From the IMG/VR virus record IMGVR_UViG_3300039036_000041, positions 1 to 20,886 of that record: 20,886 nucleotides of DNA, one strand, 5' to 3'. This DNA comes from a virus. The notes under the pieces are model-generated. The model was not told the origin of the DNA. It saw only the letters and a program-made list of their open reading frames with translations, and ran no database searches. Positions 18,004-20,392 of the stretch are shown in pieces. Position 1 is the first letter of the stretch. Each line of letters starts with the position of its first letter. The position numbers and the translations under genes are program-made.

Positions 18004-18041
18004 AAAGGGAGTTCCCAAACGGGTTCTCCCTTTTTTTTTTT
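18004..18041. terminator. Bidirectional terminator between convergent operons
   Basis: AAAGGGAG (18004-18011) pairs with CTCCCTTT (18026-18033), and an inner CCC/GGG pair closes an AAAC loop with a TT/TT internal mismatch. An 11-base T-run (18031-18041) follows on the plus strand. Read from the minus strand, the same stem ends in a shorter TTTAAT, so it can serve both the late operon ending at 17981 and nrdB ending at 18044. Confidence 0.92.
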
Positions 18042-18043
18042 AT

Positions 18044-18430
18044 TTAATTTTTAGCCCACCCCCATTCTCCTGTCATACCTCCAGCACTATAATCAGCTAC
18101 TCGTTGTTCAAAGAAGTTAGTTACGTTGTCTGCTGAGATAACCCAGTCTAACCACGGTAATGGATTCTCTTTGATACCATAGTTACCTTTCAACCCCAGT
18201 TGGATTAGTCTACGGTCAGCAATGTATCTAATGTACTGCTTTACTTCAGCTTTCGAGAGACCCTCCACATCACCCATTTGATATGCAAGGTCAACAAAAG
18301 TATCTTCAAGTTTGACAGCGTCTCTAAACATTTGGTATATATCTGCTTTAAGTTCATCTGTTACTACCCTTGGGTGTTCATCTAAAAATGTATGGAATAA
18401 CTTAATCATTCCCTCTACGTGTAAGCTCTC
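18044..18430 (-). CDS. nrdB: Ribonucleotide reductase small subunit, exon 2
   Basis: The 3' exon of the split nrdB encodes 128 residues (192-319 of the spliced protein). It opens with ESLHVEG, which holds the last two iron ligands of class I R2 proteins (E192 and H195; E238 and H241 in E. coli NrdB). It continues with the typical YIRYIADRRLIQLGLKG helix and ends near GEWGWAKN, short of the long R2 tail of E. coli. The first internal ATG is at 18409, but translation from there would lose the E-x-x-H motif, so this is an exon and not a separate gene. The stop lies next to the bidirectional terminator. Confidence 0.93.
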   Translation of the reverse strand, partial: ESLHVEGMIKLFHTFLDEHPRVVTDELKADIYQMFRDAVKLEDTFVDLAYQMGDVEGLSKAEVKQYIRYIADRRLIQLGLKGNYGIKENPLPWLDWVISADNVTNFFEQRVADYSAGGMTGEWGWAKN

Positions 18431-19248
18431 CGTGTGTTCATAGCAAGCCGCAACACTCGCTACCGTTCTCTTATGAACTGCTTATGTTTTCACACAAGTC
18501 CAGACTATATCTTCACCTATACGGTGTTATACGCTTCGAGTACCTTTAGCTTGTACTCTACTCCCTGACGGGATAGTCGTTGCACTTTCAAGACCTAACT
18601 CTTTCCAAGCATATCCCCATCTTTTTCTGTGACGAATAAGAGAAACATATCTTGGGTGTATACCGTACTTGTCGCCTGCTTCTTTGTTAGACATACCCTC
18701 ACGGAGTTCTAAAATTAACTCTTTGACGGTCTCTAAGTCTAACTTTCTTTCAGACAGTTTAGTGTTCTTAACAGGGGAGTTATACGTCTGTTTATCATGA
18801 TACCTGTGCGTGTTCTCTTCTGAGGTAACTTGCTCTAGGTTCTTAACGTGGTTATGTAGTTTATTACCATCAATATGGTCTATGTGCATACCTTTATGAA
18901 TAGTACCAACAAAAGTCTCATACACTAATCTATGAGCTGTTATTTGTTCGTGCCCTTCTTCATTGTATAAAGTATAGCAGTAGTAACCAATACCTTTCTT
19001 TAGTATCGGTTTTAAAACCTTCCCTGTTAAGTTGTTAATCACTTTCCCTGTTACGGTAATGTTGTAGTTAGTATAGGTTGGATGCGTCTTTTGCATTTCT
19101 CAATTCCTTATCTTGCTTAGCTCAGTATTAATATGCAAGTAGCTTTCTTTAGCTTTCTTGTTTAATCTTCACTGAATTCATATAATTATCTCTAATCAGT
19201 TTCCTGTTAAGAGGGACAAAAAGTCGTTATAAATCAACAACTTAGACT
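18431..19248 (-). ncRNA. Group I (IA-type) self-splicing intron in nrdB
   Basis: The 818-nt intron is read leftwards. The R element AACGACTATCC (18571-18581) and S element AAGATATAGTC (18503-18513) form P7 (GACUA/UAGUC). Between them lie P7.1 (CCC-gtca-GGG, 18563-18572), P7.2 (GAGTAC/GTACTC, 18538-18558) and P8 (CACC-gtata-GGTG, 18514-18526). Downstream are P9 (CTTGTG/CATAAG), a GTTC/GAAC hairpin and a TAGCGAG/CTTGCTA stem. The intron ends GAACACACG, like the T4 td intron's GAACATAATG. The 5' exon ends in U (GGAT) and the intron in G, as group I splicing needs. A possible guide CTTTTTGTCC (19214-19223) pairs GGAU as P1 and GAGAG of exon 2 as P10; this part is tentative. Confidence 0.93.
18527..19096 (-). 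CDS. Intron-encoded HNH homing endonuclease
   Basis: A 189-aa protein inside the nrdB intron, similar in layout to the phage enzyme I-HmuI (174 aa). It has a NUMOD4-like N-terminus (GKVINNLTGKVLKP, residues 17-30) and an HNH core with HRLV (H55), HIDHIDGNKLHN (H71 to N82) and NLEQVT (N86-T91). A helix-turn-helix DNA-binding region lies at about 135-160 (SNKEAGDKYGIHPRYVSL). AAGGA lies 9 bases before the ATG. It would nick intronless nrdB alleles and so spread the intron. The last about 19 codons coincide with the P7 5' strand, P7.1 and P7.2 of the ribozyme and stop just before P8, so the C-terminal peptide (ATTIPSGSR onward) is dictated by RNA structure. Confidence 0.93.
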   Translation of the reverse strand: MQKTHPTYTNYNITVTGKVINNLTGKVLKPILKKGIGYYCYTLYNEEGHEQITAHRLVYETFVGTIHKGMHIDHIDGNKLHNHVKNLEQVTSEENTHRYHDKQTYNSPVKNTKLSERKLDLETVKELILELREGMSNKEAGDKYGIHPRYVSLIRHRKRWGYAWKELGLESATTIPSGSRVQAKGTRSV

Positions 19249-19821
19249 ATCCTTAATGCTCCATTCGTTAATCTTACTTAGCCCCATCAGCTTACCTTTG
19301 CGTTGGAAGTTAAGTAGCATAACAAAAGCACCAAACAAGCTAACACCTTCTGATAATACTGTTCGTGCAATAGACCTAGCAATACCTCTATGGGACTTCA
19401 TATCCATATCAGTCATTGACTCAATCTTTTCGGCTAAGTCTTCATAGTCTAGGAAGGCTCTGAAAGAATCATCAGGTAATCCGATAGTGTCTGTGAACAA
19501 AGCATAGGAGCGTTGGTGGATACCTTCTCTAGCTGCAATAGACAATAGCATCTGTCTAATCTCATTGTTCTTAAATGTAGGTAAGAAGTGGTCGATGTAA
19601 CCACTAGCTACCTCAGCATCAGACTGTGTGAAGGTCTTCATAATCTCAATGACTAAGCTCTTCTCTTCTGGTGTAATAGTACCATCATTCCATTGACGCA
19701 TATCTTCTGTTAGGTCAATCTCTTGTTCTACCCAGTGCATCTTCTCGGAAGTCTCTGCAAGCTGTACTGCCCAAGCAAAAGTGAAAGGTTTGTAAGTTTT
19801 GTTTCTTTCTAGTAAGCTCAT
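19249..19821 (-). CDS. nrdB: Ribonucleotide reductase small subunit, exon 1
   Basis: The 5' exon encodes residues 1-191 of the di-iron R2 subunit, which generates the tyrosyl radical that NrdA uses to make deoxynucleotides. The iron ligands D68 (FTQSDAE), E99 and H102 (REGIH) and E158 (LSEGV) are present, as is the radical Tyr Y106 (HQRSY). The exon ends WSIKD at 19249; reading on into the intron adds only SLSC and a stop. Joined to exon 2 the protein is 319 aa and regains the KDESLH motif. AAGGAG precedes the ATG, and the groES stop TAA overlaps that ribosome site, so groES and nrdB are probably co-transcribed. Confidence 0.95.
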
Positions 19822-19830
19822 AGTTTCTCC

Positions 19831-20091
19831 TTAGTATTCGTACTTAGCAAAGACACTATCTTCACTGAGGATGAGAAGTTTCTTACCCGCCTCTGTTACA
19901 GGTAACGCCCTAGACCAGTCTACAGCAATCTTATCACCAATAGCTAAGTCTCCTGTTACGTTAACCCCCAGGGATACAACTACGGCTGCCTTAACGCCAA
20001 CCTCTGCAACCCCTTGTAGGATAATACCACTTTCTGTTTTATTCTCTACTTCAACTTCTGTTACTACAATATTATTCTTTAATGCTTTCAT
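19831..20091 (-). CDS. groES: Phage GroES-like co-chaperonin
   Basis: An 86-aa protein of the Cpn10 fold. It has an N-terminal strand MKALKNNIVVTEV, a mobile loop at about residues 15-27 (ENKTESGIILQG; the GIIL unit is the part that docks on GroEL), and the second-half motif GDLAIGDKIAVDW. It is slightly shorter than bacterial GroES (about 97 aa). No GroEL gene is in the window, so it would work with host GroEL, as T4 gp31 does, probably to fold the capsid protein. AAAGGAAAAAT precedes the ATG. It sits between nrdA and nrdB. Confidence 0.9.
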   Translation of the reverse strand: MKALKNNIVVTEVEVENKTESGIILQGVAEVGVKAAVVVSLGVNVTGDLAIGDKIAVDWSRALPVTEAGKKLLILSEDSVFAKYEY

Positions 20092-20226: not shown

Positions 20227-20256
20227 CTTGAGGCCACAATTTGTGACCACATAATT

Positions 20257-20379
20257 AGTTAATATATAAACTATATGTACATATTTTAATGTTTTATAGT
20301 TAATATATAAACTGTATGTACATATTTTAATGTTTTATAGTTAATATATAAACTGTATGTACATATTTTAATGTTTTAT
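20257..20379. repeat. Three 41-bp AT-rich tandem repeats
   Basis: Copies start at 20257, 20298 and 20339. Copies 2 and 3 are identical and copy 1 differs by one base. Each has about 15% G+C and contains the perfect palindrome TATGTACATA plus a near-palindrome AGTTAATATATAAACT. The 41-bp period is about four helical turns, so each palindrome faces the same side of the DNA. An iteron-like protein-binding array, replication origin or regulatory site are the options; nothing here decides between them. Confidence 0.9.
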
Positions 20380-20392
20380 AAACATATAGTTG

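Follow-up and report, generated by a model that had tools for sequence, protein, structure and literature searches.

The nrdB gene of the Zobellviridae-like phage represented by the 20,886-nt stretch of DNA analyzed here (the window) is very probably interrupted, between the codons for D191 and E192, by a group I intron that carries an HNH gene in its P6 loop, splices to give full-length NrdB, and homes by means of the HNH protein. We regard the intron as genuine and of an ordinary type, one more example of a group already known.

The gene is found in two pieces on the minus strand of 18044-19821, and in a profile search both match Ribonuc_red_sm. Exon 1 (19249-19821; PF00268, 2.4e-38) encodes residues 1-191 and ends with AAGGAU, its last base being U; exon 2 (18044-18430; PF00268, 1.8e-18) encodes residues 192-319, starts with the GAG codon of E192 and contains H195. 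Excision of 19248-18431 joins IKD to ESLHVEG in frame (GAT + GAG), generating a 319-residue NrdB with KDESLHVEG across the D191/E192 junction, and the boundaries 18431 and 19248 proposed by the first-pass annotation, together with its GAT/GAG junction, are thereby confirmed. Among the junction pairings considered, 19248/18431 is the only one that has U at the end of the 5' exon and G as the last intron base, keeps the frame open and retains ExxH. Ending the intron at 18430 with the same 5' site shifts the frame, and ending it there with the 5' site one base on gives KDKSLH, so that both the ligand and the U.G pair are lost.

When aligned to solved R2 proteins, the joined NrdB has its best match in 9dws_A (5.9e-116, residues 3-317); E192 and H195 align with the RDETIH stretch of 2ani, and D68, reading by eye, faces an acidic residue. 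The alignment bears out the earlier proposal that the first codon after the intron encodes a metal ligand by homology. Ligand positions were assigned from their E. coli counterparts, which we take to be D84, E115, H118, E204, E238 and H241. On this basis the intron would separate D68, E99, H102, E158 and the radical-bearing Tyr106 from E192 and H195. The ligands are thus divided as previously suggested, but not into two halves of a di-iron site, because four ligands and Tyr106 stand on one side and two ligands on the other. We infer that the metal is iron; a relative such as 2ani may bind manganese and iron.

The intron (18431-19248, minus strand) is 818 nt long, starts with A and ends with G. 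The Rfam model RF00028 (Intron_gpI) matches it with 26.3 bits (E 2.2e-4 when 1101 nt were searched and 9.6e-7 in a second, genome search), less than the curated cut-off of 50 bits, which is a curation threshold and not a defining trait, so that its filing as group I rests on core pairing, splice-site rules and the family model. A scan of Rfam at the gathering threshold was correspondingly empty and the intron was visible only in permissive searches, plausibly because the 570-nt HNH ORF splits the core. The same model found matches in four of 14 control genomes, in two of them above the cut-off. MicroRNA and snoRNA matches from the permissive Rfam search were at chance level (E 2.2 and 8.6) and were discarded. 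A covariance model of the 3' core, built from 16 relatives with the window left out and giving rough E-values, had a sole match in the window at E up to 1, at 18596-18430 (98.4 bits, E 2.7e-27); the match runs one base past 18431, where tail length varies among the relatives. The 3' core of the window intron therefore resembles that of the nrdB/nrdF HNH intron family (SPbeta yosQ-like). An Intron_gpI search had been suggested as confirmation of the core: the Rfam score fell short of the cut-off, and it was the relatives' model that recovered the 3' core.

The helices P1, P2, P3, P4, P7 and P8 can be assigned, all on the minus strand. An internal guide GUCC (19214-19217) pairs with exon-1 GGAU (19252-19249) in a 4-bp P1 that places a U.G pair at the splice site, although a P1 of this length is not beyond chance, since the approximately 76 positions searched would often yield one. 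P1 is extended by the 8-bp AAGUUGUU/AACGACUU (19221-19243), and a P2 hairpin with a GAAA loop and a CAG/CTG stem core can be read from the sequence at 19190-19213. The P3 strand UUAUAUG (19179-19185) has its partner CGUAUAA at 18533-18527, the P4 strand UUCAGU (19171-19176) has ACUGAG at 19126-19121, the P7 strand GACUAU (18573-18578) has AUAGUC at 18508-18503, and P8 is the hairpin CACC-GUAUA-GGUG (18514-18526). The strands of P3, P4, P7 and P8, chosen by eye, are complementary and in order; P5, P5a, P6a, P7.1, P7.2, P9.1 and P9.2 were also assigned, and J3/4 and P6 were placed by eye. P7 covaries among relatives (GACUAU/AUAGUC, GACCAU/AUGGUC and GAUCAU/AUGAUC) in a comparison of 13 introns that covered the P3 strands of seven, P7 of 12 and P4 of all 13. 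An alternative P4, CAAG/CUUG, was dropped in favor of UUCAGU/ACUGAG, which agrees with the relatives; a P4 proposed for the related intron of contig L178 was wrong, with two of seven pairs. Core pairing, splice-site rules and the relatives' model together uphold the first-pass identification of a group I intron in nrdB.

The core is divided into a 5' and a 3' half by an ORF (18527-19096, minus strand; 570 nt) for a predicted HNH homing endonuclease of 189 residues (PF13392, 3.7e-13; phrog_59, 4.5e-34). It consists of an HNH_3 domain and a C-terminal HTH-like RYVSLIRHRKRW, with a weak HTH_23 match of 21 bits that lies below the 24.6 cut-off, and carries a C-terminal RYVSLIRHxxRW motif. The 3' end of the ORF overlaps the P6a 3' strand, the P7 5' strand, P7.1, P7.2 and P3', so that P7, P7.1, P7.2 and P3' double as coding sequence for the final residues (TTIPSGSR...). 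Such overlap of ORF and core ("core creep") is known, for example, from a Bacillus thuringiensis nrdF intron (PMC3073962). The earlier reading had the group I class and the junction right; it did not include the HNH ORF, the way this ORF overlaps the core, or the nrdB-linked family described below.

The site is empty in related phages. In 80 of 80 viral nrdB loci listed from the confirmed matches (at least 595), the two halves of the gene are contiguous at the exact window site, and the residues at the site are D and E in every one. It is likewise uninterrupted in T5S1 and KZY1 (both Zobellviridae), Vp_R1 and pVa5; the nearest relatives of the window terminase include Zobellviridae phages and ICP2. 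Comparison with intronless nrdB alleles thus agrees with the earlier view that the insertion target is highly conserved. Nucleotide identity at the insertion site was not raised relative to two of the four relatives compared (T5S1, KZY1, Vp_R1 and pVa5). A free HNH protein of KZY1, encoded between nrdA and nrdB, was not counted as a relative because its resemblance to the window HNH is weak (E 0.001).

Other features lie around nrdB in the window. A Cpn10 (GroES-like) gene (19831-20091, minus strand; PF00166, 8.3e-10) is found between nrdA and nrdB, and between it and nrdA an AT-rich unit of 41 bp is repeated three times in tandem, almost perfectly (20256-20380); within this array are five promoter-like minus-strand matches; the array perhaps represents repeated promoters or binding sites. 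A plus-strand terminator-like hairpin with a T run (18007-18036) is positioned between nrdB and a convergent virion gene, one such structure being found against 1.1 expected from shuffling.

In the mechanism that we envisage, the intron would fold in the pre-mRNA, guanosine would attack at the P1 U.G pair and cut after GGAU, and GAU would be joined to GAG to restore full-length NrdB. Read unspliced from exon 1, the frame meets a stop after SLSC, five codons into the intron, and ribosomes running on into the intron would therefore produce a 195-residue fragment that lacks the final two metal ligands, the N-terminal product that had been anticipated from unspliced mRNA. The HNH protein would cleave nrdB genes that lack the intron, within the conserved stretch encoding DExxH, and the intron would then be copied into the cut gene by homing.

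It is unlikely that splicing acts as a regulatory switch that delays or conditions the appearance of active NrdB, a suggestion of the first-pass annotation that gains no support from this analysis. Unspliced RNA cannot yield an enzyme with all six ligands, and splicing of the T4 introns is reportedly linked to growth state and translation, going by the title of the 2007 work of Sandegren and Sjoberg cited in PMC3653736; however, nrdB is uninterrupted in all 80 of the listed other loci, so that in those phages control of nrdB does not require the intron. We consider it very improbable that the segment no longer splices and that NrdB is made as two separate polypeptides. There is a precedent in the split nrdA of Aeh1 (PMC7344957), and an ATG occurs within exon 2 at 18409, but a C-terminal half started there would lack E192 and H195, the intron core is intact and the exons join in frame. 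An assembly artefact fusing unrelated phage sequences, in favor of which stands the metagenomic origin of this IMG/VR virus record (IMGVR_UViG_3300039036_000041), is scarcely credible: the flanks together make up a single NrdB with its halves in the correct order, the splice-site rules and core are as expected, and the same arrangement is present in isolate genomes.

Several known introns resemble that of the window. The best HNH match (41.8%) is from Acinetobacter phage P577 / YMC13/03/R2096, whose nrdB intron also pairs a GUCC guide with exon GGAU and has an HNH C terminus that runs into P7, but is inserted 6 nt further 3', between GAUGAGGAU and UUGCAU. The bnrdF intron of SPbeta, containing yosQ, interrupts the same gene family, encodes a homologous HNH and fits the same 3'-core model, although it is among the 16 used to build it; it lies 10 nt upstream of the window point. 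Pectobacterium phage CB7 has an intron in the same gene with the HNH homolog CB7_196, and RT-PCR with Sanger sequencing has demonstrated that this intron is spliced (PMC7344957); it differs in being 3 nt upstream (between R and D) and in its longer HNH with a second HTH. Two uncultured phage contigs, L219 and L220, share the D/E point and GUCC/GGAU pairing with the window, but their NrdB is distant and their longer HNH proteins do not group with that of the window. The T4 nrdB intron with I-TevIII is, by annotation, also a group IA intron with an HNH gene in nrdB, but is about 30 codons upstream; T4 introns and endonucleases are reviewed in PMC2988022. RNR is the phage nucleotide gene most often interrupted by introns (PMC3653736), conserved protein sites are preferred by group I introns (PMC2814812), and homing sites often encode vital residues, with "collaborative homing" denoting a free-standing endonuclease and an ORF-less intron that have a common target (PMC3984707).

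By its sequence, the window HNH is a member of a lineage tied to nrdB/nrdF. Its relatives are found in the nrdB/nrdF introns of SPbeta, Serratia phage Sureiya, Acinetobacter P577 and CB7, and also of Vibrio 1.161.O and Alicyclobacillus KKP_3916. A single-protein search of viral contigs with the window HNH found no relative; in an alignment search, the best six of at least 80 loci (L090-L095) are in nrdB/nrdF, and the remaining 74 of those listed have no NrdB match in the surrounding DNA stretch searched. A DNA pattern for the C-terminal HNH motif, independent of nrdB, identified 36 viral loci and one genome locus, of which 32 of 37 are in nrdB/nrdF introns, four are on contigs with intact nrdB and one (L199) is approximately 2.2 kb from an intact nrdB. 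SPbeta-like bnrdF introns, many from near-identical prophages, account for 24 of the 37, both splice sites being within the examined stretch in 19 of the 24, and eight are other nrdB introns (L172, L178, L189, L190, L191, L192, L194 and L196). The four with intact nrdB (L174, L175, L177 and L180) encode free-standing proteins with the HNH motif, in which, reading by eye, an apparent GIY-YIG part is joined to the same HNH/HTH. Further introns occur in some phage nrdB genes: L178 (9270-10760, reverse complement) has an ORF-less one between EGIFFSG and SFC, upstream of that with the HNH gene, and in the L221 record nrdB is in three pieces.

The family occupies six insertion points, all within 20 nt around the DExxH codons. 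Numbered in nucleotides relative to the start of the E codon, they are -14 (Vibrio 1.161.O), -10 (SPbeta type), -7 (L094, with a nearly identical protein in L095), -3 (Serratia, CB7, Alicyclobacillus, L093, L190, L194, L196, L178 and L221), 0 (the window, L219 and L220) and +6 (P577). All 17 family nrdB introns compared and the T4 control have U before the intron, a terminal G and a P1 of at least 4 bp, the agreement on U and G being partly built in because these rules guided ambiguous junction choices. Independent checks of the junctions are the open frame and a 34-residue spacing from the exon-1 E (LEx/xEG) to the E of DExxH, found by hand count in seven (the window, SPbeta, L094, Vibrio, CB7, L219 and L220), with 36 in P577. 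P1 reaches 7 bp in P577, L094, L190 and L194, a length less expected by chance than 4 bp. A splice-site pattern for the D/E point had no matches in viral contigs; it missed L219 and L220 because it required GATATAGTC within 52-82 nt and HVEG. We found no earlier report of shifting insertion points in a literature search that covered mainly freely readable papers.

In the HNH tree of 28 rows, in which several branches are long and unsure, there are ten changes of label against a minimum of eight for nine labels. With the eight non-nrdB rows removed, the window and P577 are sisters (90/91, not starred) and the two -10 rows nest within a starred group of -3 rows (98/97); on this reduced set the AU test rejects monophyly of the nine -3 rows (p 0.0006). 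Monophyly of the three 0 rows is rejected weakly (p 0.032, for a hypothesis named after the first tree), which weakly suggests that the D/E point may have been reached more than once. Insertion point and endonuclease lineage are therefore not one to one. The mismatch could result from short hops, or related endonucleases could have invaded ORF-less introns independently.

We tentatively propose, as a scenario with somewhat less than an even chance of being correct, that one HNH intron lineage moved repeatedly among at least six nrdB points, its guide being re-matched to the end of each exon. The points would shift because the endonuclease recognizes the conserved stretch and the intron settles where there is a suitable P1 partner; the step between the window (0) and P577 (+6), whose guides are both GUCC and whose HNH proteins are sisters, would represent one short hop. 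The wider pattern of insertion points is of modest interest. Introns at conserved, vital codons of phage RNR genes are well known. Gene, endonuclease lineage and target motif are constant in this family while the site of insertion shifts by a few nucleotides, and the introns form a natural series for asking whether it is endonuclease cutting or guide pairing that fixes the landing site of a group I intron.
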